A stretch of 64,000 bases of DNA from Microterricola gilva. GTDB lineage: Bacteria > Actinomycetota > Actinomycetes > Actinomycetales > Microbacteriaceae. Under the pieces are notes generated by a model. The model was given only the letters and a program-made list of their open reading frames with translations, did not search any database and had not been told where the DNA came from. This document shows positions 2,161 to 20,287 of the stretch, one piece after another. The DNA lies in contig NZ_SHLC01000001.1 in assembly GCF_004217495.1 (NCBI RefSeq), forward strand, positions 3,410,001 through 3,474,000. The letters run 5' to 3'. Within the stretch, counting starts at the first letter, position 1. Each line of letters starts with the position of its first letter. A program made the translations under genes and the position numbers.

Positions 2161-3477
2161 ATGATCACGCAAGACGTCGCGGCGCCCTCGTCAGTACAGC
2201 TGACAGGCAATGCCACCAAAACCGAGCGTAAGAACCTTCGCGCGCTCAGCTGGGGCCACGCCCTCGAATGGTACGACTGGGCGATCTTCGGTCTGCTCTC
2301 TTCGTACCTTGGGGCCCACTTCTTCCCCGCAGACAACGAACTCGCATCGACACTGAATGCGCTCGCCGTCTTCGCCGTTGGATTCATTGCTCGCCCCATT
2401 GGCGGCATCGTCTTCGGATCCATCGCCGACCGTCTTGGCCGCCGCAAGATCATGATCTTCGCCATCGCAGCCGTGTCCTTCGGCAGCTTCGTCATCGGCG
2501 TCCTGCCGGGGTACGAGACCATCGGTGCTGCCGCGCCGATCATCGTCGTCGCCATGCGTTTGCTGCAGGGCCTGTCTGCCGGCGTCGAGGCGCCTCTCGG
2601 CACCGCCTACGCACTCGAACTGGTTCCGAACCGCCCCGGTTATGTCTCGGGCTTCTTCGGATTCTTCAACAACCTCGGAAACCTGCTCGCACCGCTGTCG
2701 ATCTTGTTCCTCACACAACTGCTCACGGGTGACAACCTCGCAGAGTGGGGCTGGCGCATTCCGTTCATCATCGGCGGACTGTTCGGTCTCATCGTGCTGT
2801 GGCTGCGCAGCACGCTGCCTGAGACGCTCGACATCGACGGCGCACGCGAAGCAAAGGCTGAGAAGAAGCAGCTCCCCTCGGTATGGGGCGACGTACGCAA
2901 GTACTGGCTGAGCGTTCTGGCCACCGTCTTCATCGTCGGTGCCATCCAGGCCTACAACTACACGTGGATCGCTGGCCTGCCCAACCTCGCGCGCGCTGCT
3001 TTCCAGGAAGACCCAGCCGCTGTTTTCGCCATCACCACCGGCTTCGGAATCTTCATGACTCTTGGCGCACTGTTCCTCAGCAAGGTTCTTGACCGTTTCG
3101 CGATGTCAAAGGTCTTCGTCGTCGCTCGCGTCCTGGCAATTCCGACGATCTTCCTGTCATTGCTCTACACACAGCCCGGCATCGAAACCTTCGCAGGGGT
3201 CATGTTCGGTGGCGCGATCGTGTTGCTTCTCAACATGACGATCTTCGTCACGGTCTCCAACTCGCTGCTGCCCCAACACATCCGCGGCACGGGTCTCGGC
3301 CTCGGCTACGGCTTCGGCGTTGCGCTCTTCGGTGGCACCGCTTCGTACCTGCTGCTGTGGCTGCAGGGCGAGGGCATGTTCTGGATGTTCCCGGTATACA
3401 TCGCCGCCCTGTGCGCAATCAGCGTGGTTCTGTACCTCGTAGCCAAGAAGCGCAACGGCATCTTCGTCGGTAAGTAG
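2161..3477 (+). CDS. MFS transporter (MHS-like), first paralogue
   Basis: The protein has 438 residues and about 12 membrane segments. The MFS loop signature GSIADRLGRR is at residues 86-95, and HALEWYDW at 33-40 is typical of the metabolite:H+ symporter branch. It probably imports an organic substrate with protons. It is followed by a nucleoside hydrolase and a cytidine deaminase on the same strand, so a nucleoside is the most likely substrate. A close paralogue is encoded at 9648-10967; long blocks such as VRKYWLSVLA.VFIVGA.QAYNYTW match almost residue for residue. The start has a good ribosome site (AAGGGAG, about 5-nt spacing). By eye the operon is less G+C rich than its surroundings. Confidence 0.85.
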   Translation: MITQDVAAPSSVQLTGNATKTERKNLRALSWGHALEWYDWAIFGLLSSYLGAHFFPADNELASTLNALAVFAVGFIARPIGGIVFGSIADRLGRRKIMIFAIAAVSFGSFVIGVLPGYETIGAAAPIIVVAMRLLQGLSAGVEAPLGTAYALELVPNRPGYVSGFFGFFNNLGNLLAPLSILFLTQLLTGDNLAEWGWRIPFIIGGLFGLIVLWLRSTLPETLDIDGAREAKAEKKQLPSVWGDVRKYWLSVLATVFIVGAIQAYNYTWIAGLPNLARAAFQEDPAAVFAITTGFGIFMTLGALFLSKVLDRFAMSKVFVVARVLAIPTIFLSLLYTQPGIETFAGVMFGGAIVLLLNMTIFVTVSNSLLPQHIRGTGLGLGYGFGVALFGGTASYLLLWLQGEGMFWMFPVYIAALCAISVVLYLVAKKRNGIFVGK

Positions 3478-3570: not shown

Positions 3571-4527
3571 ATGGAACGCTTCATCATTGACACTGACCCC
3601 GGCATCGACGACGCCGGCGCACTGTTCTGGGCACTCGCAACGGACAAGTTCCACGTCGAGGCGCTCACCACCGTCTTCGGGAACGTAAACGTTCAGAAGG
3701 CAACCGCCAACGCACGGAAGATCACACACCTGTCGGGTCGCCCTGACTTGCCGATTTGGGTTGGCGCTCCCCGCCCTCTCGTCGGGGAGCCGAACTTCGC
3801 CGAGCACATTCACCGCCCAAGCGGCGTTGGGTACTGGGAGTACCCCGATCCGGCTCCCGGCACTGATGGCCCAACCGAGGCCGTGCAGAAGATGATCGAC
3901 CTCGTCATGTCAAACCCGGGCGAGATCAGCATCATGGCGCTCGCACCGCTCACGAACGTCGCTCTCGCGATCTCGTTGGAGCCGAAGTTTGCTGAGAACG
4001 TCCGTCGCATCATCTACATGGGTGGAGCAGCTCTCACGTGGGGCAACGCCTCTCCTGTTGCCAGCGCGAACATCTTCAACGATCCTGAAGCTGCCGAAAT
4101 CGTCGTGCAATCTGGTGCGAAGCTGACACAGGTCGGTCTTGACGTGTGCCGCAAGTTCTCGGTCACCCCTGACCGGGTAGAGAAGCTGTGGGCATCAGGT
4201 TCACCCATGGGCCGCGCCCTGTGCGAAATGATCGGCTACCCCGACCGCCACCAGGACACCACTGAGATGCCAGAGTGGAAGTCAGAAGGCATGCACCTGA
4301 ACGATGTTCCATGCATTGCCTACGCCATCAACCCGGACTGGTTCCAGGTGCGTCATCTGCGCGTCGATGTTGAACTGGACGGCAAGCACACCCGCGGACA
4401 GACAGTCGTGCAGATGATCGACCGTTGGGGCGGTGTCCCCAACGTTGATGTGTTGCTGGACATTGACGCGGCAGCCGTGGCAGACGCGCTCGTCGAGTCC
4501 GTCACCGCTTTCGGAACCAGGAACTAG
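3571..4527 (+). CDS. Nucleoside hydrolase (IunH/RihA-C family), first paralogue
   Basis: The 318-residue protein begins with the Asp cluster that defines the family (DTDPGIDDA, residues 7-15) and binds Ca2+ and the ribose hydroxyls. The usual MALAPLTNVALA and GGA segments follow. Members hydrolyse the N-glycosidic bond of purine or pyrimidine nucleosides in the cytosol. The pairing with a transporter and cytidine deaminase supports nucleoside salvage, perhaps of pyrimidines, but specificity cannot be read from sequence. Length is normal for the family. A strong hairpin lies on each side of the gene. Confidence 0.9.
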   Translation: MERFIIDTDPGIDDAGALFWALATDKFHVEALTTVFGNVNVQKATANARKITHLSGRPDLPIWVGAPRPLVGEPNFAEHIHRPSGVGYWEYPDPAPGTDGPTEAVQKMIDLVMSNPGEISIMALAPLTNVALAISLEPKFAENVRRIIYMGGAALTWGNASPVASANIFNDPEAAEIVVQSGAKLTQVGLDVCRKFSVTPDRVEKLWASGSPMGRALCEMIGYPDRHQDTTEMPEWKSEGMHLNDVPCIAYAINPDWFQVRHLRVDVELDGKHTRGQTVVQMIDRWGGVPNVDVLLDIDAAAVADALVESVTAFGTRN

Positions 4528-4568: not shown

Positions 4569-4607
4569 AAGCCTTCGGCCGTGGGTATTGGACACGGTCG
4601 AAGGCTT
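4569..4607 (+). terminator. Second intercistronic hairpin
   Basis: AAGCCTTCGGCCGTG (4569-4583) pairs with CACGGTCGAAGGCTT (4593-4607): 15 pairs including one G-U, with a 9-nt loop, followed by CGTCTTTGTCC. It lies between the nucleoside hydrolase and the cytidine deaminase start at 4642. It is a possible terminator, or a stability element within the operon. Confidence 0.6.
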
Positions 4608-4641
4608 CGTCTTTGTCCCGTGTATTCGGAAAGGTACGACT

Positions 4642-5061
4642 ATGACTCAAGATCTCCTCCCCACAGACACGGAACTCGTCGAGGCCGCCGCGGCCCTCCT
4701 GTCTCGCGTGCACGATCCAGGCGCCGTTCGGGTTGCCGCCGCTGCACGCGGCATCTCGGGAGCCGTGTATCTCGGCGTGAGTCTCGCCACCCCGCGCGTC
4801 AAAGTGTGTGCTGAAAGCAGCGCGGTCGCCAACGCGAAAATCGGCGGCGACGAAGCCATCACCACGATCGTTTCTGTCGGGCTCGGGGTTGACGATGTTC
4901 CGCACGTCATCAACCCGTGCGGGGTGTGCCGTGAACTGATCCCGAAGTTTGGTCAGGATCTGCGTGTCCTCATCGACACGGGGGACGGTGTCGTCGCCGC
5001 AGTGACCCCCGTCGAACTCCTGCCTATGCCGTGGATCCGCGCTCGCTCCTACGACGACTAA
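4642..5061 (+). CDS. Cytidine deaminase family protein
   Basis: The protein has 139 residues. The zinc/catalytic signature is C-A-E at residues 56-58 and P-C-G-V-C at 92-96, so Cys56, Cys93 and Cys96 would bind zinc and Glu58 would shuttle the proton. Family members deaminate cytidine or deoxycytidine; blasticidin-type deaminases share the same short architecture. GGAAAGG at 4628-4634 marks the ATG at 4642. The longer in-frame reading from 4588 starts inside a hairpin and is rejected. Operon position after transporter and nucleoside hydrolase suggests salvage of cytosine nucleosides. Confidence 0.85.
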   Translation: MTQDLLPTDTELVEAAAALLSRVHDPGAVRVAAAARGISGAVYLGVSLATPRVKVCAESSAVANAKIGGDEAITTIVSVGLGVDDVPHVINPCGVCRELIPKFGQDLRVLIDTGDGVVAAVTPVELLPMPWIRARSYDD

Positions 5062-7450: not shown

Positions 7451-7483
7451 GCTGCAATGCCTTCCGTCAGTCACCCCAACCCT

Positions 7484-7785: not shown

Positions 7786-8622
7786 ATGAGCAACCCCTAC
7801 CTCCAGCGCTTCACCGGCGTCTTCGCCGACAAGGCCCCCGTGATCGGCATGGTCCACATGTATGCGCTTCCCGGAGCCCCTGGCTACTCCGGAGACCTGA
7901 ACGACGTCATCGACCGCGCTGTCGCAGACGCGACGTCACTCGCAGAGGGTGGCGTCGACGCACTGCTCGTCGAGAACTTCCACGACTACCCCTTCTACCC
8001 GGTCACCATCGAGCCGGAGACCGTCGCCGCCGCGGCCGTCGTCGCCCGCGAGGTCGCCCGCCACACCGACCTCCCGCTCGGCATCAACATCCTCCGCAAC
8101 TCCTGGAAGGCATCACTCGGCATCGCAGCAGCGGTGGACGCCCAGTTCATCCGGCTCAACATCCTCACGGATGCCTCGGTGACCGACCAGGGCATCATCA
8201 ACAGCGAGGCGCACCTCGTGGCCCGCTACAAGAAGAGCATCGGCGGCGAGCACATCCTCACCCTCGCCGACCTGCTCACCAAGCACGCCCGCCCGATCGT
8301 CGAGCGCCCGGTCGGCGTCATCGCCGCCGACATGCTGCACCGCGGCGGCGCGGACGCCATCATCCTCGCCGGTGACGACACGAGCATGCCGCCGAGCCTT
8401 GACCGCCTGCGCCAGGTCAAGGACGCCATCCCGGACGCCCCGGTCATCCTCGGCTCGGGCATGACCGCGCAGCACGCCGCCACCTACGCCGAGGTCGCCG
8501 ACGGCGCCGTGTTCGGCTACGGCTCCAAGCCCGACCGCAACATGGACCTGCCGGCCAGCACCGAGCTGGCCCGCGAGTTCGTGGGACTGTGGCGCGGTGG
8601 CAAGGAGAAGAAGGCCGCGTAG
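7786..8622 (+). CDS. BtpA/SgcQ family protein
   Basis: The 278-residue predicted TIM-barrel protein belongs to the BtpA/SgcQ family. Recognisable blocks are the N-terminal VIGMVHMYALPGAP segment, VDALLVENFHDYPF near residues 59-72, and the late glycine-rich VILGSGMT segment. BtpA was named for a role in photosystem I biogenesis, and SgcQ sits in an E. coli sugar operon; a general enzymatic reaction is not settled. Here it has its own strong promoter, a clear AAGGAG site, and is followed by a terminator and a GntR regulator. It may act on a sugar or sugar phosphate of the neighbouring pathway, but this is a guess from position. Confidence 0.8.
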   Translation: MSNPYLQRFTGVFADKAPVIGMVHMYALPGAPGYSGDLNDVIDRAVADATSLAEGGVDALLVENFHDYPFYPVTIEPETVAAAAVVAREVARHTDLPLGINILRNSWKASLGIAAAVDAQFIRLNILTDASVTDQGIINSEAHLVARYKKSIGGEHILTLADLLTKHARPIVERPVGVIAADMLHRGGADAIILAGDDTSMPPSLDRLRQVKDAIPDAPVILGSGMTAQHAATYAEVADGAVFGYGSKPDRNMDLPASTELAREFVGLWRGGKEKKAA

Positions 8623-8633
8623 CAACCGAACGA

Positions 8634-8669
8634 CCGTTGGGCCCGCGCCATCCGACGCGGGCCCAACGG
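8634..8669 (+). terminator. Hairpin after the BtpA/SgcQ gene
   Basis: CCGTTGGGCCCGCG (8634-8647) pairs perfectly with CGCGGGCCCAACGG (8656-8669) around an 8-nt loop, just after the stop at 8622. It lacks a U-run, as is common in actinobacteria. Confidence 0.75.
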
Positions 8670-8773
8670 CATGTCCGCATCCATCGTCCCGCTCCGCCAC
8701 ATGCCCCGCGCACGCCCCCCGACCGGCGTCAAGCTGCGATACTTTTACCGCCCATGTGTTGTGAGGAGTTCGA

Positions 8774-9517
8774 GTGACCGAGGACCACGTCCCGCCGTCG
8801 AGGCGACGTTCCACCCGCGTGCCCCTCGCCGACCGGGCCTACGAGGAGCTCCTCCTCCAAGTCATCAGGGGCCGGCGCCCACCCGGGGACTGGCTGAACA
8901 TCCATGCGCTCTCGCGCGAGCTCAACCTGTCCGCAACGCCCATCCGAGAGGCTCTCGCCCGCCTGGAACCGACTGGCTTCGTTCGGCGGAATCCGTTGCG
9001 CGGCTACGAGGTCGCACCTCTGCTCTCGCCGACAGAGATCCAGCAGTTGATGGATGCGCGACTCCTGTTCGAGCCGGCGTTCGCCGCGGAGGCCGCAACC
9101 AGCTCGACCCCCGCCTTCCTGCAGCAGCTCGTCGACACCATCGAGTCGATGGAGCACGCGGGCGATGTCACGAACGCGGAGTCGCTCAAGGAGAGCTGGC
9201 TCGCCGACGAGTCGTTCCATACCCTGCTGAGCGCCAACACCGGCAACCCATTCATCCACAGGGCATTCACGGCACTGGGCAGCCAGCTCCAGCGGTTCCG
9301 CTTCAGCGGACGGGCAGGCAGAACGCACGCGCTGGAGGCGGCGAAGGAGCACAGGGAGATCCTCGAGGCCATCCGCCGCGGCGACGGGGTCGCTGCCGCC
9401 GAGCTCATGCGATCCCACATCGAGTCGGCGCGGCAGCGCACTCTCGCCGACGAGCGCGCGGTGCACGAGGCCGCGGAGGCCGCAGCCAGCTCGACCCCAC
9501 GGCGCTCGGCCCGCTAG
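8774..9517 (+). CDS. GntR family regulator, FCD type, paralogue A
   Basis: The protein has 247 residues. It has an N-terminal winged helix-turn-helix (about residues 18-85, with HALSRELN..ATPIREALARLEPTGFV) followed by an all-helical FCD ligand-binding domain with the metal-site residues typical of FadR-type GntR proteins. The GTG start at 8774 follows GAGGAG (8763-8768). It resembles the protein at 19616 through the recognition helix and wing (LSRELxxxxTPxREALARLE; LRGYxVAP). The two probably recognise related operators, and CTATA-C-TATAG is the best candidate. The ligand is likely a sugar acid or related carboxylate. Confidence 0.85.
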   Translation: MTEDHVPPSRRRSTRVPLADRAYEELLLQVIRGRRPPGDWLNIHALSRELNLSATPIREALARLEPTGFVRRNPLRGYEVAPLLSPTEIQQLMDARLLFEPAFAAEAATSSTPAFLQQLVDTIESMEHAGDVTNAESLKESWLADESFHTLLSANTGNPFIHRAFTALGSQLQRFRFSGRAGRTHALEAAKEHREILEAIRRGDGVAAAELMRSHIESARQRTLADERAVHEAAEAAASSTPRRSAR

Positions 9518-9647: not shown

Positions 9648-10967
9648 CTACTTGCCGGCGAAGACACCGTTCCGGCGCTTCGCGACCAGGTAGAGCACGA
9701 GGCTGATGGCGCACAGGGTGGCCACGTAGACCGGGAAGAGAGCCCCGAGATCGATGCTCCGCAGGTAGACGAACAGGTACGACGCTGTGCCACCGAACAG
9801 GGCGACGCCGATGCCGTAGCCGAGCCCAACGGCTGTGCCTCGGAACTGCTGCGGGATCATCAGGTTCGCGACCGTGCTGAAGATGGTGAGGTTGAGCAGC
9901 AGGACGAGCGAGCCACCCAGCATCACCGCGGCAAGCTGGCCGACGCCATCGCCGGTGTAGAGGAGTACGAGGAAGATCGTCGGGATCGCGAGGATGCGTC
10001 CGACCACGAAGGCCCGCGACAGGTTCCACTTGTCGAGGAAACGGCTGAGGACCAGTGCTCCAACGGTGAGGATGCCGCCGAGAGTCGTCGACACGGCGAA
10101 GACGCCGGTCGGGTCCTCGTTGTATGTGCCGGTCGCCATCGAGGGCAGGCCGGACAGCCAGGTGTAGTTGTAGGCCTGGACCGCGCCGACGATGAACACC
10201 ACGGCGAGGACGCTGAGCCAGTACTTGCGAACGCCGCGCCAGACCTCAGCAGACTTCCCGCTGGCGGGGGCCGTCGAGCCGTCGGTCACCGGCGGAAGCG
10301 TCTCGGGCAGGGTGCGACGCAGCCAGAGCACGATGAAGCCGAGCAGACCGCCGAGGATGAACGGCACGCGCCATCCCCATTCGGCCATTCCCTCCGGGCC
10401 GATCAGCATGGTCGTCACGAGCGCCGTGAGCGGAGCGAGCATGTTGCCCAGGTTGTTGAACGTCGCCATGAAGCCGGCAACGTACCCGGGGCGCTCCGGA
10501 ACGAGCTCCACGCCGTACGCCGCGCCGAGCGATCCCTCAATACCGGTTGAGAAGCCCTGCAGGATGCGGCAGAGCAGAACAATCACACCGGCCCAGATGC
10601 CGAGCGTCTCGTGCGTCGGGGTGATTCCGATGACGAGGCTCGCGGCCGCGGTGATGCCGACGGCGCCGACCATGACGGGCCGCCGGCCCAGACGGTCGGC
10701 AACGAGGCCGAGGAAGACGCCACCGATCGGCCGCACGACGAAGCCGACGGCAAACACGGCCAGCGAGTTCAAGGTCGCCGCAACAACGCTCTCCGCCGGG
10801 AAGAACGCCTGGCCGAGGTAGACGGACAGGAGCCCGAACATCGCCCAGTCGTACCACTCCAGTGCGTGACCGGCACTCAGTGCGAACAGCTGCCTGGCCT
10901 GGCGCCGCTTCAGCGCCTGGGGGGATTCAGTGCCCTCACGGAGCACGGGGTCTTGAACTTTAGACAT
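9648..10967 (-). CDS. MFS transporter (MHS-like), second paralogue
   Basis: The protein has 439 residues from the preferred ATG at 10967. It has about 12 membrane segments, the HALEWYDW block and the loop signature GLVADRLGRR. It is strongly similar along its length to the transporter at 2161. An in-frame ATG at 11009 would add 14 residues but has no ribosome site, whereas AAAGGAG at 10986-10980 precedes 10967 (long 12-nt spacing) and the shorter form matches the paralogue's length. It lies downstream of the nucleoside hydrolase and sugar-acid genes and probably imports their starting compound. The operator at 11028-11038 lies 60 bp before the start. Confidence 0.85.
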   Translation of the reverse strand: MSKVQDPVLREGTESPQALKRRQARQLFALSAGHALEWYDWAMFGLLSVYLGQAFFPAESVVAATLNSLAVFAVGFVVRPIGGVFLGLVADRLGRRPVMVGAVGITAAASLVIGITPTHETLGIWAGVIVLLCRILQGFSTGIEGSLGAAYGVELVPERPGYVAGFMATFNNLGNMLAPLTALVTTMLIGPEGMAEWGWRVPFILGGLLGFIVLWLRRTLPETLPPVTDGSTAPASGKSAEVWRGVRKYWLSVLAVVFIVGAVQAYNYTWLSGLPSMATGTYNEDPTGVFAVSTTLGGILTVGALVLSRFLDKWNLSRAFVVGRILAIPTIFLVLLYTGDGVGQLAAVMLGGSLVLLLNLTIFSTVANLMIPQQFRGTAVGLGYGIGVALFGGTASYLFVYLRSIDLGALFPVYVATLCAISLVLYLVAKRRNGVFAGK

Positions 10968-11027
10968 GGGAGGGGGGAGCTCCTTTGCTCGGGGGTCAAG
11001 CGGAATCATTGCGGGGGAAACTTCTGA

Positions 11028-11038
11028 CTATAGTATAG
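11028..11038. promoter_or_regulatory. Palindromic operator CTATA-C-TATAG, copy 2
   Basis: On the minus strand this reads CTATACTATAG, identical to the core at 2069 and 18785. It lies in the 122-bp gap between the nucleoside hydrolase stop and the preferred MFS start. Again it includes a TATACT sequence that could serve as -10 for the MFS gene. Confidence 0.65.
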
Positions 11039-11089
11039 CGAGAATTTGGGGGCGGGGGTGAGAAATCGTCACCCCAGTGCGCGGCGGCG

Positions 11090-12079
11090 TCAGCGCCACG
11101 GCAGCGGGCGCCGCAGCGTCTCGTCGATCATCTCCAGGACCCCGTTGAAGTCCATGTCGAAGATCACGCGGTGCTGAGGCCGGGTCTCTCCCTTCTCCGG
11201 GTGCACGCCGGCCAGGAACCGCTCGCCCGTCTCGGGGTCCTCGAAGGTCGCCAGTGGCCGCTGGACGGCACCCGCGACGAGGTCGGGGCGCAGCAGCGTG
11301 GCCACCGCGAGGCTGTCGTTGATCCCCATGACGCGCGCGTCGTCGGGCTGGGGATAGGAGCGGGAGTAGAAACCGGCGTAGTCGTGGCTGATCTTCGTGA
11401 TCAGCTCGGCCGGCGCGTAGCCGGTGGACGCGGCGATGTCGAGGAAGAAGTTCTCCGGCACGAGCGCCTGACGCGTGACGTACGGACCACACCAGGTCAC
11501 GTTGCCCGGGCGGCTCGCGACCTCCTGCGCGGCGTCGATGTCGAAGGAGACGTTGGGGTCGCGGGAGACGCGGAAGCGGCGGTCGGCCCACGGCTCGGTG
11601 TCGTTGTAGAGCGCCGGCCCGAGGGTGCCGACGATCGTCACGCTCTTCAGGCGCTCGAGCAGCAGCGGATCCGTCTGGAGCGCCGTGGCCAGGTTGGTCT
11701 GCGGGCCCAGCGCGAGGTAGTCGATCTCGCCCTCGTGCTCGTTGACGAGGTCGAGCAGGACCTGGATGCCGTTCGGCTCGGTGGGCACCGAGACGGCCGG
11801 GCGCAGGCCGGTGTTGCCGAAGCCGTCGTCGCCGTGCACGCCGGAGGACAACTTGAGCTCCTGCTTCAGCGGCACATCGCAGCCCCGGTAGACCGGCACG
11901 TCCTGGCGCCCGCAGGTGTCGAGCACGTAGCGCGCGTTGTCGGCCGCGCGGTCGCCGTGGCAGTTGCCGAAGACGCTCAGCACGGCCAGGATCTCGACGT
12001 CCGGGTCGGCCGCCAGGAGCATCAGCGCCAGCGCGTCATCCACACCGGTGTCGGTGTCCACTACAACTTTTCTCTTCAT
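11090..12079 (-). CDS. Nucleoside hydrolase family protein, second paralogue
   Basis: The 329-residue protein has the family Asp cluster DTDTGVDDA at residues 8-16 and the usual central LALGPQTNLATAL block. It is clearly diverged from the enzyme at 3571, for example through the extra KQELKLSSGVHGDDGFG loop, so a different substrate is likely. AAGGA lies 5 nt before the ATG. It lies 92 bp after the ModA-like gene on the same strand, at the end of the sugar-acid operon and just before the second MFS gene. It may release the sugar that the upstream enzymes oxidise. Confidence 0.88.
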   Translation of the reverse strand: MKRKVVVDTDTGVDDALALMLLAADPDVEILAVLSVFGNCHGDRAADNARYVLDTCGRQDVPVYRGCDVPLKQELKLSSGVHGDDGFGNTGLRPAVSVPTEPNGIQVLLDLVNEHEGEIDYLALGPQTNLATALQTDPLLLERLKSVTIVGTLGPALYNDTEPWADRRFRVSRDPNVSFDIDAAQEVASRPGNVTWCGPYVTRQALVPENFFLDIAASTGYAPAELITKISHDYAGFYSRSYPQPDDARVMGINDSLAVATLLRPDLVAGAVQRPLATFEDPETGERFLAGVHPEKGETRPQHRVIFDMDFNGVLEMIDETLRRPLPWR

Positions 12080-12171
12080 GACATTCCTTAGTTCTCTGTT
12101 CGCGCGTCGTGCTGTCGCGCGGATTCACTCTCTGTCGGCCGCCGCGGTGAAGCGTGACGGCCAGGGTGTGC

Positions 12172-12849
12172 TCAGGGGGCGCTCAGCCCGACCGCCGCGA
12201 ACGCCTCGCTCGCGCGGGTGCTCGTCAGGTAGGACGCGAATGCGCCTGCCGCCTCGGGGGCGCCCGCCCGCACGCCGATTGCGAACCGCGCGTAGGACTG
12301 CAGCTCGTGCGGGATCGGCTCGACGATGTGGGGGCCGGCGACCGAGCGCAGCTCGCTGACCTGCTGGATGGCGACATCCGCGCGCCCGTCGACGACGGCC
12401 TCCGCCGTGAGTCCAGCGGTGAATCGGACGGCTCGCACGTCGAGGCGCTCCAGCAGCTCGCGCTGACGCATCACCTCGGCGAAGTGCAGCCCGCTCGCAC
12501 CGGAGAGCGAGTACGCGACCGCCCTGGCGCCGAGCAGATAGTCGAGGAACGCCTGCGCCGAGTCGTCAGCGGGGGCTGGCGCCTCCGGCATCCGCGCGAA
12601 TCCGACCGCCGAGACCGCGATCTCGGCAACGGCGTCACCGTCGAGGATGCCCTGATCGGCGAGGCCGCGCACCGAGCCGGCGACGCCGAGGACCATGTCG
12701 GGACGCTCGCCGGCGCCGATGCGTTCCAGCAGCACCGAGGTCGGCTCGAAGGTCACCTCGACCCTGCTGCCGCTCGCGGCCTCGAATTCGGGGATGAGCG
12801 ATTCGACGAGCGGTTGCTGCACGACGAGTCCGCTGTAGAGGGTGATCAT
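12172..12849 (-). CDS. ModA-like substrate-binding domain protein without signal peptide
   Basis: The 225-residue protein resembles extracellular solute-binding proteins of the ModA/SBP_bac_11 type (ITLYSGLVVQQPLVESLIPEFEAASG opening; the final SYLTSTRASEAFAAVGL helix). It starts directly with the first beta strand and has no signal peptide or lipobox. The ATG at 12849 overlaps the stop of the aldolase gene (ATGA) and has AAAGGA upstream, so the short start is well supported. A cytoplasmic binding domain could sense or sequester an anionic intermediate, or be an enzyme of the same fold. No ABC permease or ATPase gene is nearby. Confidence 0.7.
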   Translation of the reverse strand: MITLYSGLVVQQPLVESLIPEFEAASGSRVEVTFEPTSVLLERIGAGERPDMVLGVAGSVRGLADQGILDGDAVAEIAVSAVGFARMPEAPAPADDSAQAFLDYLLGARAVAYSLSGASGLHFAEVMRQRELLERLDVRAVRFTAGLTAEAVVDGRADVAIQQVSELRSVAGPHIVEPIPHELQSYARFAIGVRAGAPEAAGAFASYLTSTRASEAFAAVGLSAP

Positions 12850-13496
12850 GCGGGATGGGTCCTTTCGGGGGCGGTGCGCGACGTCAGCGCGGCCAGTCGC
12901 TCCGCGGTGAGCGGAGCGGTGGGGTGCCCCGTGGTGATGAAGTACACCTGGGCGGTGTGCTCGAGCTCTTCGAGCGCGTCGAGCGCGGAATCGAGGTCGA
13001 CACCGGCCACGACGGGGCCGTGGTTGCGCAGCAGAAGCGCGTGTCCGGCGCGGGCGGCCTCCTCGACGGCGGCCGTGGCGGCCGGGTCCCCCGGCGCGAA
13101 GTACGGCAGCAGCCGGAGCTCGCCGACCCGCATCCCGTAGTACGCCGTCAGAGGCGGGAGCGGACGCTCCGGGTCCAGCCCGTCCAGGCACGACAGCGCG
13201 GCCGAGTAGAGCGAGTGGGTGTGCACGACGGCGTTCAGGTCTGGGCGCACACGCAGCATCGCGACGTGGAGGAACGCTTCCTTCGTCGGCTTCGGCCCGC
13301 CCAGGTGGTGCCCGGCGGCATCCAGGACAGACAGCTCGCCCGCCTCGACCTCACCAAGGTTCACCCCGGTCGGCGTGACCAGAATGCGCTCACCATCGCG
13401 GATCGCCAGATTGCCGGTGCGGCCGTGGGTGAGCCCCCGTCGATGGATCGACCGCGCGACGCGCTCGATCTGCGCCGCAGCGTCCTCGCCGCTCAT
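12846..13496 (-). CDS. otnC: Class II aldolase family, OtnC-like 3-oxo-tetronate 4-phosphate decarboxylase
   Basis: The 216-residue zinc enzyme of the AraD/adducin fold has the HTH pair in VVHTHSLYSAAL, a third His in LLLRNHGPVV and an acidic residue in PTKEAFLHVA. OtnC enzymes decarboxylate 3-oxo-tetronate 4-phosphate to dihydroxyacetone phosphate. Assignment rests on the adjoining DUF1537 kinase (overlap of 4 bp) and the OtnI-like isomerase in the same operon. A different chain length (for example a five-carbon acid) is possible. Confidence 0.8.
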   Translation of the reverse strand: MSGEDAAAQIERVARSIHRRGLTHGRTGNLAIRDGERILVTPTGVNLGEVEAGELSVLDAAGHHLGGPKPTKEAFLHVAMLRVRPDLNAVVHTHSLYSAALSCLDGLDPERPLPPLTAYYGMRVGELRLLPYFAPGDPAATAAVEEAARAGHALLLRNHGPVVAGVDLDSALDALEELEHTAQVYFITTGHPTAPLTAERLAALTSRTAPERTHPA

Positions 13497-14716
13497 CGCG
13501 CCTCCCCGCTCCGTGCCACGTCGACGAACAGATCGGGGTCGCCGAAGTTCCCTGACTTCAGGACGAGGTGCAGGTCACGGTCGGTGTCGTGGATCCACGG
13601 GGCACCGAGCGCCGCCTCCTCGCCGACGACGGCGGTCCGCGTTCCGAGCGCCTTGACGACCTCGCCAGAGGTCTCGCCACCGGCGATCAGCATCCGGTGC
13701 AGGCCGCGGTCGGCCAGCTGCGTCGCGATGAGGCCGGCGGTCTGCTCGTACAGCGCACCGAGGTCGCGGCTGGCGTCCCGCTCCTCGGCTGGACTGGAGG
13801 AGTAGATCAGCGCCGAGGCATCGGCCGGCTGCGCGTCCCACCACGCCAGTGCGCTCTCGGCCAGCTCGGACGCCGACTCCCCCGGCTCGGCGACGAGCTG
13901 GAAGGCCTCGCCACCGCTGGCACGGAAGCGTGCGATCTGCTCGAGGGTGCGGCGCGAGCAGCTGCCGGCGAGGATCGCCGTCCGACCGCTCGGTGGGCCG
14001 GCGACGACGCGGTCGGATGCCGGGCGGCGCAGCGCGATCGCACCGATGAGCCCGGCGGATCCGGCGACGAGCACGTCGCCGTCCACGGCCTCTGCGATGA
14101 CGGCGAGGTCGGCTTCGATGACCGCATCGACGACGAGATGGGCGATGCCGGATGCCGCGGCGGCGGCGATACCGGCACGGACCGACTCTGCGCCATCGCG
14201 GACGGTCTCGAGCGGGAGCAGGTCGACGGTCCCGGTCACCTGCGGGGCGAGCAGCCTCGGCACCGATGAATCACGCATGGGGGTGACCGGGTGCTCGCGC
14301 ATGTGGGTCTCGTGCAGCAGGGCGTCGCCGACGAACAGGTGGCCGCGGTAGACCGTTCGGCCGTGCAGCGGTGCCGCGGGGGTCGTCACGACGATGCCGG
14401 CGCCGAGCTCGGCCGCGAGCGCCTCGGTCACGGGGCCGATGTTGCCCTCCGCCGTCGAATCGAAGGTCGAGCAGTACTTCAGGTAGAAGCGATCGGCGCC
14501 GAGGCGCTGGAGTGCCGCGAGCGCGGCGAGGCTCTGGGCGACGGCATCCTGCACCGCGATCGATCTGGTCTTCAGCCCGATCACGATGGCGTCGGCGTCG
14601 CCTGCTCCCTCGCCGATGTCGGCGGTCAGGGAGAGCAGCGTCCGCAGCCCGGAGCGACTGAGGGCCGCTGCGACGTCGGTCGCGCCGGTGACGTCATCGG
14701 CGATGACCCCGATCAT
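13493..14716 (-). CDS. otnK: Four-carbon acid sugar kinase family protein (OtnK-like, DUF1537)
   Basis: The 407-residue protein has the two-domain DUF1537 architecture. The N-terminal domain begins IGVIADDVTGATDVA and the C-terminal nucleotide-binding domain includes AGGETSGEVVKALG. OtnK phosphorylates 3-oxo-tetronate at O4, while relatives act on threonate, erythronate or apionate-derived acids. It is coupled by stop-start overlaps to the racemase-like gene before it and the aldolase after it. With OtnI and OtnC it forms the known isomerase-kinase-decarboxylase set. Confidence 0.85.
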   Translation of the reverse strand: MIGVIADDVTGATDVAAALSRSGLRTLLSLTADIGEGAGDADAIVIGLKTRSIAVQDAVAQSLAALAALQRLGADRFYLKYCSTFDSTAEGNIGPVTEALAAELGAGIVVTTPAAPLHGRTVYRGHLFVGDALLHETHMREHPVTPMRDSSVPRLLAPQVTGTVDLLPLETVRDGAESVRAGIAAAAASGIAHLVVDAVIEADLAVIAEAVDGDVLVAGSAGLIGAIALRRPASDRVVAGPPSGRTAILAGSCSRRTLEQIARFRASGGEAFQLVAEPGESASELAESALAWWDAQPADASALIYSSSPAEERDASRDLGALYEQTAGLIATQLADRGLHRMLIAGGETSGEVVKALGTRTAVVGEEAALGAPWIHDTDRDLHLVLKSGNFGDPDLFVDVARSGEAR

Positions 14717-15381
14717 CGACCGCGCCCGTCGATGTCGGCCGCCAAGCGGGCGGCGGCGGCACGCGGGCCGTCGAGCGTCGGAACGGCGAAGCTCTCGGCG
14801 AGAACGGCCGCGGCGGGCGCCAGCGAGAACTGGGCGAGCACGATCAGCTCGTAGTCGGCTGCGACGGTCGCCACGGCATCCGCGAGCACCTCGGCGAGGC
14901 TGTCGGCGGGGAGCGGCTTCGCTGCGGCCGGAACGACGAGCGACCGGATCTCCGTCGTGACGCCGGCCGACTCGAAGGCGGCGGCGAGACGCGCTGAGCT
15001 GTCCGCGGCGGCTGACTCCAGCGAGGCGACGAGCAGCACGCGCGCCGGGCGGTGCGCAACGGCCTCGGCGAAGAGGGGCCCGTCGGCCGACAGCACGGCG
15101 ACACCGTCGGCCGTGACGTCGCGAACGTCGGCGCGCGCGCCGTACTGCGAGCAGGTCAGCAGCACGCCGTCGGCTCCTCCGGCGATCGCCAGCTCGATGA
15201 GCTGGTCCATCCGCGCGGCCAGCGGCGCGCTGATGCCGCCCTCGAGCTGGGCGTCGGCGAGCAGGCGGTCATCGAGCAGGTTCCAGACGGTCCCGGTCGG
15301 GAACGCCTCGCTCATCGCGGCGGCCGCCGGGCCGATTGCCAGCGGCGTTGCGCTGATGAGTGCGATGCGTGCGTCGCTCAT
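14713..15381 (-). CDS. Asp/Glu racemase superfamily-like protein lacking the second catalytic Cys
   Basis: The 222-residue protein has the pseudo-symmetric fold pattern of aspartate/glutamate/hydantoin racemases and maleate isomerases. The first catalytic Cys is present in LLTCSQYGA, but the matching second site reads LAQFSLAP where a Cys is expected. A two-base racemase mechanism is therefore doubtful. It may be a one-base epimerase, isomerase or lyase for a sugar acid. The start at 15381 overlaps the isomerase stop (ATGA); the longer in-frame start at 15402 is not needed. Its place between otnI and otnK suggests a role in the same pathway. Confidence 0.65.
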   Translation of the reverse strand: MSDARIALISATPLAIGPAAAAMSEAFPTGTVWNLLDDRLLADAQLEGGISAPLAARMDQLIELAIAGGADGVLLTCSQYGARADVRDVTADGVAVLSADGPLFAEAVAHRPARVLLVASLESAAADSSARLAAAFESAGVTTEIRSLVVPAAAKPLPADSLAEVLADAVATVAADYELIVLAQFSLAPAAAVLAESFAVPTLDGPRAAAARLAADIDGRGR

Positions 15382-16184
15382 GCGCTGATCCTCTCTGTCC
15401 ATGTCAGGCCATCGTGGGTGTCGGCGACGGGTCCGTACTCGCAGCCGATCCAGCCCGCGTAGTCACTGGCGGCGATCCGGGCGAGCACGCGCTCGTAAGC
15501 GATCTCCCCCGTTCCAGGTTCGCCCCGTCCGGGGTTGTCGGCGATCTGAACGTGCCCGACGAGCGGGGCGAGGCGCTCAAAGCGCTCGATCACATTCCCG
15601 CGATCGACCTGGGCGTGGTAGACGTCGAAGAGCACGCCGACCGTGTCGGGATCGACGGCTTCGGCGACCGCGGCCGCCGTCTCCATCGACTCCAGGCCGT
15701 AGCGCGGCTGATCCCGCTTGTTGATCGCCTCGAGCACGATGCGGATGCCGGCACTGCGCGCCTGCTCCGCCGCCCAGCCGATGTTCGCAACGTAGCCGGC
15801 GAAGGCGCGCTCTGGATCGGCGTCGGCCGGTCGCAGTCCGGCCATCACGTGGATCACGGGCGTGCCGAGGACCGTCGCGTACTCCAGCGCGGAGAGCACT
15901 CCGGCGCGGAACTCGTCGCGCGCTCCCGGAACGAAGCCAGCACCCATGACCGTCGTCGAGCCCGCGGGCCCCGCCGGCGTGTTGATCAGCACCTGCTCGA
16001 GGCCTGCTTGGTCGAGCATCCGGCGGATCGCGTCGGCCGACAGCTCGTATGGTGAGGCGAACTCCACGCCGGTGAACCCCGAGGCGGCGGCCGCGTCGAA
16101 GCGCTGCTCGAACGGCACCTCCGTGTACATCCACTTGAGGTTCGCCGCGAGCCGGACGGATCCGGAGCTCGTCTCGACGATCAC
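15378..16184 (-). CDS. otnI: Hydroxypyruvate isomerase family protein (OtnI-like 2-oxo-tetronate isomerase)
   Basis: The 268-residue AP-endonuclease-2-type TIM barrel carries hallmark blocks LAANLKWMYTEVPF, IVLEAINKRDQPRY (metal-binding Glu) and VGHVQIADNPGRGEPGTGEI near the C-terminus. These are typical of Hyi/OtnI enzymes, which interconvert 2-oxo and 3-oxo (or hydroxypyruvate and tartronate-semialdehyde) forms. The GTG start at 16184 overlaps the dehydrogenase stop (GTGA). With OtnK and OtnC downstream, 2-oxo-tetronate isomerase is the better assignment. Confidence 0.8.
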   Translation of the reverse strand: MIVETSSGSVRLAANLKWMYTEVPFEQRFDAAAASGFTGVEFASPYELSADAIRRMLDQAGLEQVLINTPAGPAGSTTVMGAGFVPGARDEFRAGVLSALEYATVLGTPVIHVMAGLRPADADPERAFAGYVANIGWAAEQARSAGIRIVLEAINKRDQPRYGLESMETAAAVAEAVDPDTVGVLFDVYHAQVDRGNVIERFERLAPLVGHVQIADNPGRGEPGTGEIAYERVLARIAASDYAGWIGCEYGPVADTHDGLTWTERISA

Positions 16185-17176
16185 GCGAGCACCGCCTCGT
16201 AGCCGGGATTCACGACGAACTGGGGGCCGGCGACTCCGGTGAGCACATCGATGACGTTGGCTGCGGCCATCAGGCCGGACGTGCCACGTGCCTCGCGGGT
16301 CGCTCCGGCGACGTGCGTGGTCGCGAGGATTCCCGGCGTGTGCAGCAGCGGGCTGTCCTGGGGCAACGGCTCGGTGGCGAACACGTCAAGCGCCGCGCCG
16401 CCGATCACGCCGTTGCGGACGGCGTCGACCAGCGCGTCCTCGTCGACGATCCCACCGCGCGCGGTGTTGATCAGGATCGAGTCGGACTTCATGGTGCGCA
16501 GGCGGTCGGCGTTGATGAGATTGCGCGTCGAGTCGTCGAGGAAGAGGTGCAGCGTGACGACGTCAGCCTGCGCCAGAACCTCGTCGAGCTCCGCGCGTCG
16601 GATGCCGTTGGCCGCGGCGAAGTCCTCGTCGAAGTACGGGTCGTAGGCCACGATCTCCATGCCGAATCCGGCGGCGATGCCTGCGACGGCCTTGCCGATG
16701 GAACCGAGACCGAGGATGCCGAGGGTCGCCCCGCGCAGCTCCCGACCGGTCAGCTGCTGCCAGCTGCCGTTCGCCAGGTTCTGGATGTTCTCCGGCACAC
16801 GACGAGCGGTGGCCAGCATCAGCGCGAAGACGTGCTCGGCGACGGCCTGTCGGTTGGCTCCGGCGGTGATGCAGACCGGGATGTTGCGAGCCGTCGCCGT
16901 GGCGACGTCGACGCTGTCGTAGCCGACGCCGGTGCGCACGACGATCTCGAGGCGCTCGGCCGCGCTCAGGTCTGCGGCGGTCAGCGGCATGGTGCCCGCG
17001 ATGATCGCACGCGACCCGGCCAGCAGCTCGGCGCGCTCGGCGGCGGGCAGGGTGGCGAGGTCAGGCACGTGACGCGTGGTCAGCCCGGCGGCGCGCAGCA
17101 TCCGGTCGGCCTCGTCGCCGGCGTGCAGGAAGGCGGTGGTGATCAGGACATCGGTGAAATCGGCGGCAGTGCTCAC
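16181..17176 (-). CDS. D-isomer-specific 2-hydroxyacid dehydrogenase
   Basis: The 331-residue cytosolic enzyme has an N-terminal substrate domain and an NAD(P)-binding domain with GILGLGSIGKAVA. The catalytic set of the family is visible: Arg in NTARGGIVDEDAL, and His in TTHVAGATREA. It oxidises a D-2-hydroxy acid to a 2-oxo acid, or the reverse. In this operon it could turn an aldonate (for example a tetronate) into the 2-oxo acid used by the OtnI-like isomerase, taking the place of LtnD. The GTG start overlaps the SDR stop. 2-Ketogluconate- or glyoxylate-type activity cannot be excluded. Confidence 0.82.
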   Translation of the reverse strand: MSTAADFTDVLITTAFLHAGDEADRMLRAAGLTTRHVPDLATLPAAERAELLAGSRAIIAGTMPLTAADLSAAERLEIVVRTGVGYDSVDVATATARNIPVCITAGANRQAVAEHVFALMLATARRVPENIQNLANGSWQQLTGRELRGATLGILGLGSIGKAVAGIAAGFGMEIVAYDPYFDEDFAAANGIRRAELDEVLAQADVVTLHLFLDDSTRNLINADRLRTMKSDSILINTARGGIVDEDALVDAVRNGVIGGAALDVFATEPLPQDSPLLHTPGILATTHVAGATREARGTSGLMAAANVIDVLTGVAGPQFVVNPGYEAVLA

Positions 17177-17958
17177 CAGATCCCTCCCTCGTAGCTAGAA
17201 GCGGTGAACGCTCCGCCGTGGAATTCCGGCGTAGCGGCGGCGAAGTCGACGCCTTCGGTGTGGTTGGCGGCGTCATCCTTGGGGACGAAGCCGATTGCGG
17301 CCCAGCCGGCATCGGCGTTCCACCAGCGATCGGTGTTCGCCGAGCAGCCGTAGACGACCTGGCAGCCGACCGGGCCGCTCTCGATCGCGCAGCGCGTCAG
17401 CTCGACGCCGTCCGGCCAGCTCAGCCAGAGCCCGAGCTGTCGTCGGTCTTCGGGGGCGGGGCGGAATGTGCCGATGCGCAGGAGCACCGATTCGATGCCC
17501 CACTTGTCGTGGTAGAGGCTCGCGAGCGCCTCACCGAATGCCTTGGACACGCCGTAGTAGGTGTCCGGCCGCAGCGGCGCGGTCTCGTCAAGCACCTCGC
17601 TGGCCGGGTGGAACCCGACGACGTGGTTCGAGCTCGCGTAGACGACCCGGCGTACCCCGGCCCGTCGTGCAGCCTCGTAGACGTTGTACGTGCCGTCGAT
17701 GTTGGAGGTGCGGATCTCGTCGTACGGCGCCTCATCGGCGACTCCGCCGAGGTGCACGATGACGTCGACGCCCGCTGCCGCCTCGGTGAGCCGATCAAGG
17801 TCGGCGAGGTCGCCGATGACGATCTCCTCGTTGGCGTGCAGCGGCCGGTCGCTCTCGCTCCGCGCGTAGAGCACGACGCGGTCGTAGCGCCCAGCGAGGC
17901 CCTCGCGGATCACGCCGCCCATTCGTCCGGTGCCACCGGTGTAGAGCACTGTTGTCAT
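17173..17958 (-). CDS. Extended SDR, uronate/aldose 1-dehydrogenase-like
   Basis: The 261-residue Rossmann protein has the glycine motif TGGTGRMGG at residues 7-15, Ser-rich VYASSNHVVG, and the catalytic Tyr135-x3-Lys139 in TYYGVSK. Spacing and the SNHVVGFHP block resemble bacterial uronate dehydrogenases, which oxidise a sugar at C1 to a lactone. It is preceded by the metallo-hydrolase gene and followed by a 2-hydroxyacid dehydrogenase, an order that would fit sugar to lactone to acid to oxo acid. The actual sugar is unknown. Confidence 0.78.
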   Translation of the reverse strand: MTTVLYTGGTGRMGGVIREGLAGRYDRVVLYARSESDRPLHANEEIVIGDLADLDRLTEAAAGVDVIVHLGGVADEAPYDEIRTSNIDGTYNVYEAARRAGVRRVVYASSNHVVGFHPASEVLDETAPLRPDTYYGVSKAFGEALASLYHDKWGIESVLLRIGTFRPAPEDRRQLGLWLSWPDGVELTRCAIESGPVGCQVVYGCSANTDRWWNADAGWAAIGFVPKDDAANHTEGVDFAAATPEFHGGAFTASSYEGGIW

Positions 17959-17982
17959 CTTGGTCCTTTCGTCGCAGCGGCC

Positions 17983-18726
17983 TCAGCCGATGCTGCGGTC
18001 TTGCTCGCCACCGGTCGCGTCGGCGAAGTAGCCGATTACCGCGTGTTGCGGTCGCACACGCTGCACCTCGCAGTCGACGACGGTGAGCCCGACGTCGTGG
18101 CCGGGGAGGAGCACTCCAGAGGTGTCCGTGAGAAGTGAGCGCAGGCGGTCGATCGTCGCAACGCTCTGCTCGTCGTCCATGCTCGAGTCGGCGCGCAGCG
18201 TCGCGAGCTCGTGGATGTTCTTGACGGAGTCGCCGGCGAAGATCATGCCCTGCGCGGTGCGCTCCGTGAAGAATGCGAGGTGGTGGGGGGTGTGCCCTGG
18301 GCTCGCGATCGCGTGGATCCCTGGCAGAATCTCCTGGCCTGCCGACATCCGCTCGACCCCGTTCGTGCGCCGGAGCAGCTCCTGCACGTGCAGGTCGGGG
18401 ATGAACTTCGTCCCGGCCGGCTGATCGGCGGCCCAGGCAAGCTCCTTCTCCCCCACCCAGGTCGTCGCATTTGCGAACATCGTGAAGTTCGCCACGTGGT
18501 CCCAGTGCATGTGGGTGAGCAGGACGTCGGTGACATCATCCGGGGTCAGTCCCAGCTTGGCCAGGCCCTCGTGAATCAGAGGGATGTACGCGGGCTGGCC
18601 CGCGTCGACGAGAACCCGCCGCTCGCCATCGTCGAGGAGCCACATGCTGCTCCACCCGAATGCACCGTGCGATGACGATTTGCCGGGGAATCCCTCTACA
18701 AGTGGGTGGGCGGTGTACGCGTTCAT
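17983..18726 (-). CDS. MBL-fold metallo-hydrolase (lactonase-like)
   Basis: The 247-residue metallo-beta-lactamase-fold enzyme has the metal motif H72-M-H74-W-D76-H77. Further ligands are in SPGHTPHH, FAGDS and LLPGHD. The length and THMHWDHV pattern resemble AHL-lactonase/quorum-quenching type hydrolases. As the first gene of the sugar-acid operon, right behind a perfect operator palindrome, it probably opens the lactone made by the SDR enzyme. GTGAGG precedes the ATG at 18726. Confidence 0.82.
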   Translation of the reverse strand: MNAYTAHPLVEGFPGKSSSHGAFGWSSMWLLDDGERRVLVDAGQPAYIPLIHEGLAKLGLTPDDVTDVLLTHMHWDHVANFTMFANATTWVGEKELAWAADQPAGTKFIPDLHVQELLRRTNGVERMSAGQEILPGIHAIASPGHTPHHLAFFTERTAQGMIFAGDSVKNIHELATLRADSSMDDEQSVATIDRLRSLLTDTSGVLLPGHDVGLTVVDCEVQRVRPQHAVIGYFADATGGEQDRSIG

Positions 18727-19615: not shown

Positions 19616-20287
19616 GTGAGGATGATCGAGCAGCCAGGGACCAAGCGGCCGATTGCCGATCAAATGTACGACGTTCTGCTGCAGCAGTTCATGTCGGGCG
19701 ATCGCGGCGCGGGCCAGAGCCTGAACATCGGTGCGCTCTCCCGCGAACTCGATGTGAGCCAGACGCCTCTGCGCGAAGCCCTGGCCAGGCTCGAGCACAC
19801 CGGTCTGGTCGAGCGTGAGGCGCTGCGCGGATACCGGGTCGCCCCGATGATGACGCGGCTCGAGGTGCAGCAGCTGATGGAGGCTCGCCTCGTGCTGGAG
19901 CCGACGCTGGCCGAGCAGGCCGCGCTGCGCAAGACCGACGAGTTCATCGGCGCGCTGCGCGAGACGGTCGACGAGTTCCACCAGTCCGCGGCCCTTGCCG
20001 ATGTCGCGGCGGAGGGATTCAACCAGTACTGGCGCTCGGACGACCGCTTCCACATGCTGATCGCCGCGCAGGCCGGCAACCCGTTCCTGGCGATGGCCTA
20101 CACCGCGCTCGGCGGGCAGATCCAGCGCTTCCGCCTCTTCTCCAAACTGGGACGCACCGGCGCGAAGTTCGCGGCACCCGAACACAGCTCGATCCTCGAC
20201 GCGATCGCGTCCGGCGACGGGCCCGCTGCCGCGGCTGCCATGCGTGAGCACGTGATCGGCGCGACCGAGCGGCTGCTCGAGGCCTGA
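19616..20287 (+). CDS. GntR family regulator, FCD type, paralogue B
   Basis: The protein has 223 residues. The winged helix-turn-helix (about residues 10-70) includes [28 protein letters not shown] and LRGYRVAP, and the C-terminal FCD domain includes RFHMLIAAQAGNPF. GAGG lies 7 nt before the GTG at 19616. The DNA-reading part closely matches the regulator at 8774. It sits next to the strongest operator (18781) and is a good candidate repressor of the metallo-hydrolase/OtnIKC operon. How the two paralogues share the sites is unknown. Confidence 0.87.
   Translation: MRMIEQPGTKRPIADQMYDVLLQQFMSGDRGAGQSLNIGALSRELDVSQTPLREALARLEHTGLVEREALRGYRVAPMMTRLEVQQLMEARLVLEPTLAEQAALRKTDEFIGALRETVDEFHQSAALADVAAEGFNQYWRSDDRFHMLIAAQAGNPFLAMAYTALGGQIQRFRLFSKLGRTGAKFAAPEHSSILDAIASGDGPAAAAAMREHVIGATERLLEA

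Follow-up and report, generated by a model that had tools for sequence, protein, structure and literature searches.

A candidate modular operon for aldose oxidation built on tetronate-catabolism genes in Microterricola gilva

What do genes of four-carbon sugar acid catabolism do in one operon with a nucleoside hydrolase? The question is raised by ten minus-strand genes of the soil bacterium Microterricola gilva, located in a 64,000-nucleotide stretch of contig NZ_SHLC01000001.1 (positions 3,410,001 to 3,474,000; hereafter the window, within which all coordinates are given). The genes span positions 18726 to 9648, and the original prediction, made from the DNA letters, had read them as a possibly complete oxidative route from a nucleoside-linked sugar to a ketose phosphate. 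Scans with Pfam and NCBIfam models confirm its outer coordinates exactly and agree with it for eight of the ten gene families; the other two genes, RAC (flanked by OtnI and OtnK) and SBP (next after OtnC), had been overlooked.

In the direction of transcription, the operon begins with an MBL-fold hydrolase proposed as a lactonase (MBL, 17983..18726; PF00753, 70.2 bits), a uronate-dehydrogenase-like SDR as candidate aldose 1-dehydrogenase (17173..17958; PF01370 and PDB relatives), and a D-2-hydroxyacid dehydrogenase proposed to act as aldonate 2-dehydrogenase (HADH, 16181..17176; PF02826, 208 bits; PF00389, 79 bits). These are followed by an OtnI/hydroxypyruvate-isomerase-like TIM barrel (15378..16184), which scores below the curated cut-offs of both NF043033 (275.9 bits against 325) and the hydroxypyruvate isomerase model TIGR03234 (273.3 against 353); by RAC, a one-cysteine protein of the Asp/Glu racemase superfamily (14713..15402; PF01177, 23.3 bits, Pfam cut-off 31); by OtnK, a 3-oxo-tetronate kinase of the DUF1537 family (13493..14716), which passes its curated model (NF043035, 409 bits, cut-off 350) and matches PDB entry 3dqq with 281 bits; and by an OtnC-like class II aldolase/decarboxylase (12846..13496), which stays below the cut-off of 250 bits of NF043034, still its best-scoring model (228.7 bits). 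The last three genes code for SBP, a ModA-fold, probably cytosolic protein of the solute-binding type (12172..12849; PF13531, 100.5 bits, cut-off 25), for NH, a divergent nucleoside hydrolase of the IU_nuc_hydro family with the N-terminal Asp cluster DTDTGVDDA (11090..12079; PF01156, 183 bits, cut-off 34.2), and for an MFS transporter of the metabolite/H+ symporter type (9648..11009; TIGR00883, 232.8 bits, cut-off 443). The eight genes from MBL to SBP are tightly packed, with seven junctions of which five are 4 bp overlaps (SDR/HADH, HADH/OtnI, RAC/OtnK, OtnK/OtnC, and OtnC/SBP), one is a gap of 24 bp (MBL/SDR), and one is an overlap of 25 bp as called, or of 4 bp if the second Met is the start of RAC (OtnI/RAC). 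The start of SBP is our choice, the mechanical list of open reading frames (ORFs) giving a longer frame. At the NH/MFS end the gaps measure 92 bp (SBP/NH) and 80 bp (NH/MFS), and a simple scan of the SBP-NH gap found no terminator-like site.

The best explanation, to which a probability of roughly 0.55 is given, is that the operon is a full-length modular ladder oxidising a neutral aldose, which the nucleoside hydrolase supplies in this lineage. From the gene content we infer the chemical steps and the substrate as follows. The recurrent foot of the ladder would consist of OtnI, RAC, OtnK, OtnC, and SBP; above it, the 2-hydroxyacid dehydrogenase would convert the aldonate to a 2-oxo acid; on the next rung up, the aldose 1-dehydrogenase would turn the aldose into a lactone, which the lactonase would open to the aldonate; and, in the lineage of the window, the nucleoside hydrolase and the transporter would form the top rung that supplies the aldose. 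At the lower end, a 3-oxo aldonate would be phosphorylated by OtnK and decarboxylated by OtnC, yielding a ketose phosphate, namely dihydroxyacetone phosphate (DHAP) if the acid has four carbons and erythrulose phosphate if it has five.

The order of these steps is supported by a matrix that records NH, lactonase, aldose dehydrogenase, and 2-hydroxyacid oxidase in 15 lineages from two phyla; the lineages were admitted because they carry RAC and SBP, and for this reason the matrix is silent on how common the four enzymes are outside such lineages. Rows were dropped for SBP relatives without the cluster (L103, L119, L120), for a duplicate of L116 (L124), for RAC without SBP (L065, L070), and for ten of 19 plasmid SBP matches left unopened, one being a second L116 record. 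Furthermore, an Sde182-like gene of the NH fold (L104), an ADP-ribosylglycohydrolase (L081), and a nucleoside hydrolase about 5 kb off (L118) were scored as no NH. So scored, NH occurs in two lineages (the Agromyces type and genome G820), aldose dehydrogenase in eight, lactonase in seven, the missing one being L102 at a contig end, and the oxidase in 12. Aldose dehydrogenase and lactonase are found only where the 2-hydroxyacid oxidase is present, and the nesting is free of violations, a result that 1e-05 of column shuffles reach (again 0 violations, 9.5e-05 of shuffles, without the NH column); most of this signal is the coupling of lactonase and dehydrogenase.

Moreover, the rungs are kept while the protein families that fill them are replaced. 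The lactonase position is taken by MBL, by SMP-30 (L123, as annotated), or by a seven-bladed lactonase (L121); the oxidase position by HADH, by Ldh_2 paired with a DAO-type protein (L097), or by an FMN hydroxyacid oxidase (L117, and L121 and L123 as annotated); and the aldose dehydrogenase position by the SDR or, in L121, by a GMC dehydrogenase complex. Three of the seven lineages without aldose dehydrogenase carry acid importers (GntP in L116, DctM in L101, TTT in L117). The nested upper modules and the family replacement speak for the predicted sequence of aldose, lactone, aldonate, 2-oxo acid, 3-oxo acid, phosphorylation, and decarboxylation; they are its strongest support, and the order of steps read in this way from gene content is well supported.

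The recurrence of the gene set, which the original prediction had proposed to look for in other genomes, was found. NF043035 matched 70 of 199 genomes of the family, 36 of them over the cut-off, and up to 20 kb around these 36 OtnK matches were surveyed together with four further regions and two Agromyces loci. By tblastn with 14 window proteins, the full core is present, besides the window, in L006, L007, L087, and L095, and the whole block recurs in L006 and L007, which are named Agromyces. Partial cores are seen in L081 (without OtnC and NH), L069 (rearranged, at a contig end), and L097/L098 (split). Five of the 36 OtnK regions, one of them the window's own, contain SBP (L069, L081, L084, L087, L095), each with RAC; SBP is also present in L097 and L098, regions chosen for RAC. 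The distribution is patchy, as the sample contains two further genomes of the same genus as the window, G063 and G182, and neither has an OtnK match. Farther away, of 394 genomes of the class, four, counting that of the window, match the SBP profile at 1e-15, with core clusters in G568 and G288 and none in G579, while the SDR matches 13 of 396 genomes of the order at 1e-45, again with the window; of the 12 others, 11 were examined (G372 was left out), and the core is present in G838 and G820 and absent from nine. At 1e-20, SBP is matched in 2 of 24 genomes of G820's family and in 13 of 150 of G568's family, these 13 being mostly weak matches that were not opened. Among plasmids, SBP matched 19 records, and in seven of the nine opened RAC, OtnK, and OtnC lie beside it (L115, L116, L117, L118, L121, L122, L123), the other two being without the cluster (L119, by annotation, and L120); a tblastn search of the plasmids with RAC gave nothing at 1e-12, though the SBP matches led to plasmids that bear it. 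An assembly of chance neighbours is ruled out by the recurrence of the same genes over families and phyla, and specifically because the full block is found in L006 and L007 and a block with an altered NH/MFS end in genomes G129 and G073. Separately, D-glutamate cyclase-like genes (PF14336) lie near OtnI-RAC-OtnK-OtnC-SBP in plasmids of Rhodococcus and Agrobacterium (L115:5171-6103, L122:7846-8814); they are perhaps another entry point, and no acid dehydrogenase was seen there.

The MBL metal-site motifs HxHxDH, H, D, and H, which we take to identify such a site, are kept in nine of nine aligned sequences, the window's included, and models of acyl-homoserine lactonase and pyridoxolactonase match weakly, all below cut-off; MBL is proposed as a sugar lactonase in the place taken elsewhere by SMP-30 (annotated) or propeller lactonases. 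The SDR belongs to the uronate dehydrogenase family by sequence match and by its catalytic Tyr/Lys (YGVSK); its best PDB relatives score between 192 and 200 bits in phmmer (6mfh 200, 3rft 196, 3ay3 195), with 46% identity over 228 aa to a 3rft fragment. The Arg presumed to bind the uronate carboxylate is kept in the window, L081, L098, and L123, and is Asp in L102, L104, and L105, which argues against a uronate substrate there; the Ser positions of the substrate site, presumably with the same role, are altered in the window.

The link of the operon to nucleosides, also predicted originally, is supported in part. In G820 (L105), a genome of a second bacterial family, the upstream part of the operon contains GntR, a Zn-alcohol dehydrogenase, an alpha/beta hydrolase, an adenosine deaminase (TIGR01430, 224.5 bits, cut-off 216.55), and two successive NHs, followed downstream by MBL, HADH, OtnI, RAC, SBP, SDR, OtnK, and OtnC, and most of the first eight genes overlap or stand a few bases apart. 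G129 and G073 carry a second NH and an MFS beside the core. Overall, the 12 genomes searched contain 29 NHs, of which eight are found no farther than about 10 kb from a cluster where 0.23 would be expected (30 kb target), an enrichment that amounts to about two independent cases, three of the four genomes concerned being relatives; elsewhere, NHs lie away from the cluster in G568 and G941, G103 has one weak match elsewhere, and the contigs of G113 and G838 are too short to place NH. In the window itself, a second group at 2161-5061 comprises MFS2 (2161..3477, plus strand), a paralogue of the operon MFS (58% identity over 437 aa), NH2 (3571..4527, plus), a nucleoside hydrolase of the RihC/RihA group that is 30% identical to the operon NH (NF008036, 236 bits, cut-off 382; PF01156, 281 bits), and an adjoining cytidine-deaminase-like protein (4588..5061, plus; NF005314, 76.7 bits, cut-off 131). 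The predicted import of a glycoside is not supported, as the operon MFS resembles carboxylate/H+ symporters, although its similarity to the MFS2 beside NH2 and the deaminase-like gene is a counterpoint. As a side observation, L081:14239-19791 (G103) carries, downstream of the core, an ADP-ribosylglycohydrolase (PF03747), ORFs suggestive of an ABC importer for sugars, and a PfkB-like kinase.

Several observations weigh against the ladder fed by a nucleoside hydrolase. The lineage matrix was scored by the author, the nesting of NH within dehydrogenase is not significant when taken alone (0.27), and, if Pantoea is counted as having NH, one violation arises, as few as in 0.000365 of shuffles; in this plasmid (L118:1-2461) a ribokinase, a solute-binding protein, and a nucleoside hydrolase lie about 5 kb from a RAC-SBP cluster without aldose dehydrogenase. 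The importers fit the ladder only in part: L115 and L118, without aldose dehydrogenase, have MFS transporters, L122 has an ABC importer, L069 has none in view, and L123 has aldose dehydrogenase yet a TRAP importer. The genome of L081, G103, has a core cluster with OtnK, but nothing in it matches the window OtnC at 1e-15. The window NH and its relatives carry an Asn where other nucleoside hydrolases have, before the C-terminal Asp, a His that we take to be catalytic and that the first NH of G820 keeps. OtnK is four-carbon-like by conservation, at odds with a pentose from nucleosides. Lastly, NH lies in the cluster in only 2 of the 15 lineages, NH and MFS being additions in a few of them, and PF01156 matches nothing in three cluster-bearing genomes, G054, G124, and G288 (90, 96, and 99% complete), so that nucleosides are at best one entry point into the pathway. 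A nucleoside feed is nonetheless plausible.

A possible alternative, held with less than even confidence, is a purely four-carbon route, in which a tetrose or tetronolactone is converted to tetronate and, via OtnI, OtnK, and OtnC, to DHAP, the NH being a neighbour with a separate job. The kinase speaks for it. In 25 ordinary OtnKs, taken from regions without RAC or SBP, 77 columns are conserved; the window OtnK departs from them at five, and a single column separates these 25 from 19 OtnKs of SBP clusters, which thus keep the conserved columns; seven of 51 rows belong to neither group, and L072 and L082 were not counted as ordinary, their genomes carrying RAC and SBP on other contigs (with them, the window differs at 4 of 74 columns and two columns are group-specific). 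In addition, SBP-linked OtnKs do not form one group in a FastTree tree (branch support not inspected; L105, for example, lies beside L075), so that OtnK is, on this comparison, probably still a four-carbon kinase. The occurrence of clusters in genomes without NH, and a fructose-bisphosphate aldolase and bisphosphatase adjoining OtnC in the Agrobacterium vitis locus, point the same way. Conversely, a four-carbon route does not account for the NHs and adenosine deaminase within the G820 operon or for the clustering of NH, and it leaves RAC and SBP without a role because the known tetronate routes get by with a dehydrogenase, OtnI, OtnK, and OtnC (PMC12540250). In the A. vitis plasmid record (L117:11385-12649), the otnK match comes in two pieces, of which the annotation covers the end only.

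A five-carbon route is more doubtful; here, NH would free a pentose that is oxidised to a 3-oxo-pentonate and converted by OtnK and OtnC to erythrulose phosphate, which would enter the pentose phosphate pathway. It is in line with the genes for NH, adenosine deaminase, and a cytidine-deaminase-like protein that lie within clusters or close to them, and the steps from ribose to ribonolactone to ribonate are known in haloarchaea, where a dehydratase follows instead (PMC8551123). Against it stand the conservation of OtnK, the ribokinase-like genes of five of five genomes searched (one of five over the family cut-off), and the clusters themselves, in which no tetrulose phosphate isomerase was noticed, no search having been aimed at one. 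The final product of the ladder would depend on the carbon number of the substrate.

The two overlooked proteins have no place in the originally predicted pathway scheme, yet RAC is present at 19 of 19 SBP loci compared (L104, L119, and L120 lie outside that set). In 26 of 26 aligned RAC sequences, the TCS motif with the first Cys is kept and the second Cys is replaced by Gln or His; the lost position aligns, in a weak match, with a Cys of allantoin racemase 5lfd. A two-base Asp/Glu racemase is hence unlikely, one cysteine remaining of two catalytic ones, and RAC would most likely perform one-base proton transfer or decarboxylation rather than two-base racemisation. Structural models built on three-row alignments (pLDDT 60.8 for RAC, 52.2 for SBP) are too poor for placing active sites; the fold search with the RAC model, in which glutamate racemase, arylmalonate decarboxylase, allantoin racemase, and maleate isomerase appeared among many unrelated proteins, gave no match at or below 0.001, so that the superfamily only could be read. 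The SBP profile matches ModA structures (best E 3e-12), and the protein stays below the cut-off of the ModA model TIGR01256 (26.3 bits against 62.5). It begins directly at the first strand with no signal peptide seen by eye, and the operon contains no ABC genes beside it; without export signal and ABC partner, a transporter subunit is unlikely, and SBP may instead bind or isomerise an acid intermediate in the cytosol. Aconitate isomerase is, we presume, a precedent for an enzyme with the SBP fold, and no paper naming that enzyme was found among the matches listed. The annotations "solute-binding protein" and "racemase" are thus suggested to be misleading here. As both proteins are small and probably soluble, a missing step of sugar-acid catabolism becomes testable. 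On the side, L065 and L070 contain OtnC-OtnK-RAC clusters without SBP, with two tandem RAC copies in L070.

Regarding the roles we infer for these two proteins, it is an unlikely proposal that they are two new enzyme types that let a five-carbon nucleoside sugar into four-carbon acid-sugar catabolism. If true, nucleosides would be oxidised to DHAP by a new route, the lower part of which is common to bacteria of two phyla. A route through aldarates, quite improbable on balance, would give RAC a definite task: the SDR would oxidise a five-carbon uronate, HADH and OtnI would lead to a 3-oxo-pentarate, and RAC would decarboxylate it to 3-oxo-tetronate, the normal substrate of OtnK. This solves the carbon count and is in keeping with the closeness of the SDR to uronate dehydrogenases, with the carboxylate-type importers of several clusters, and with the weak fold match of RAC to arylmalonate decarboxylase, which presumably likewise has a single cysteine. 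It is opposed by the Asp in place of the carboxylate Arg in three loci and the other differing substrate-site residues, by the poor model behind the fold match, and by the supply, as we know of no common source of five-carbon uronates. Lastly, the cluster might be an ordinary one for D-erythronate or L-threonate, its neighbours being unrelated, as the presence of OtnI, OtnK, and OtnC, the enzymes of such clusters, suggests; this is very improbable given that a DenD-type dehydrogenase is missing (the SDR reaches 39.9 bits with the D-erythronate dehydrogenase model NF043036, cut-off 325) and that SDR, lactonase, RAC, and SBP recur with the cluster across families and phyla; the lack of a DenD match and this recurrence rule out ordinary erythronate genes, and no separate 6PGDH-type (LtnD-like) gene appeared in the Pfam scan of the ten operon genes, in which no LtnD model was run, HADH having only a weak match to PF03446 (25 bits, against 208 bits for PF02826).

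The genes around the operon include two regulators. A DUF1097 protein (18928-19500, plus), present in L087 too, and the GntR/FCD regulator GntR2 (19616..20287, plus; PF07729, PF00392) diverge from MBL; GntR2 is of a type found with many core clusters, its relatives adjoining the core in L006, L007, L087, L095, L081, L069, L097, L098, L101, and L116. Downstream of it, a sigma-factor-like ORF and a small partner ORF (20313-22120, minus) were read by eye. Beyond MFS, on the opposite strand, lie a second GntR/FCD regulator, GntR1, convergent with the MFS gene (8774..9517, plus; PF07729, PF00392) and conserved in L006 and L007, with only a remnant in L087, and upstream of it a BtpA family protein (7786..8622, plus; PF03437, 233 bits), 89% identical in L006 and L007. 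BtpA and GntR1 (7786-9517) are conserved together with NH and MFS in these two loci, and BtpA is possibly part of the pathway's nucleoside end. A P-type ATPase with a long His/Gly/Asp-rich N-terminus (5147-7582, minus) separates BtpA from the NH2 group, and a similar ORF adjoins the cluster of G129 (L087).

Among the closest known systems is the catabolism of L-threonate and D-erythronate through LtnD or DenD, OtnI, OtnK, and OtnC, with which the operon shares the OtnI, OtnK, and OtnC families and the step order. The operon differs in having a D-2-hydroxyacid dehydrogenase and no DenD match, and in adding the SDR, the proposed lactonase, RAC, SBP, and NH. Four-step and three-step routes of threonate catabolism are described in PMC12540250, and PMC10580937 reports that Ralstonia eutropha cannot catabolise threonate or erythronate without OtnK; RAC and SBP are unexplained by the versions of the tetronate route found described. 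The oxidative pentose pathways of haloarchaea, for which ribose dehydrogenase and lactonase activity is reported, likewise lead from aldose to lactone to aldonate, known there for ribose, and then dehydrate the acid to 2-keto-3-deoxypentonate, whereas the operon would oxidise C2 and proceed through OtnI, OtnK, and OtnC (PMC8551123). The oxidative deoxyribose pathway of Pseudomonas simiae also takes a nucleic-acid sugar through lactone and acid, with lactonase, SDR, and MFS genes together, but differs in a molybdenum dehydrogenase and beta-keto acid cleavage, and its text does not contain the word "nucleoside" (PMC6365646). Uronate dehydrogenases (3rft, 3ay3) belong to the sequence family of the window SDR, in which substrate-site residues are changed. 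In apionate catabolism, the DUF1537 kinase OiaK is fed by an oxidised sugar lactone; the window OtnK scores only 101.7 bits against the OiaK cut-off of 700. No paper on this gene set was found among the matches listed from open-licence literature on DUF1537 kinases, on the Otn names, or combining NH with ribonate, lactonase, or BtpA, OtnK with uronate dehydrogenase, a racemase with 3-oxo-tetronate, and nucleoside degradation with ribonolactone. In comparison with these systems, the operon is a new variant of tetronate catabolism, and its gene set would carry that catabolism up to the level of aldoses and perhaps, in certain lineages, of nucleosides.

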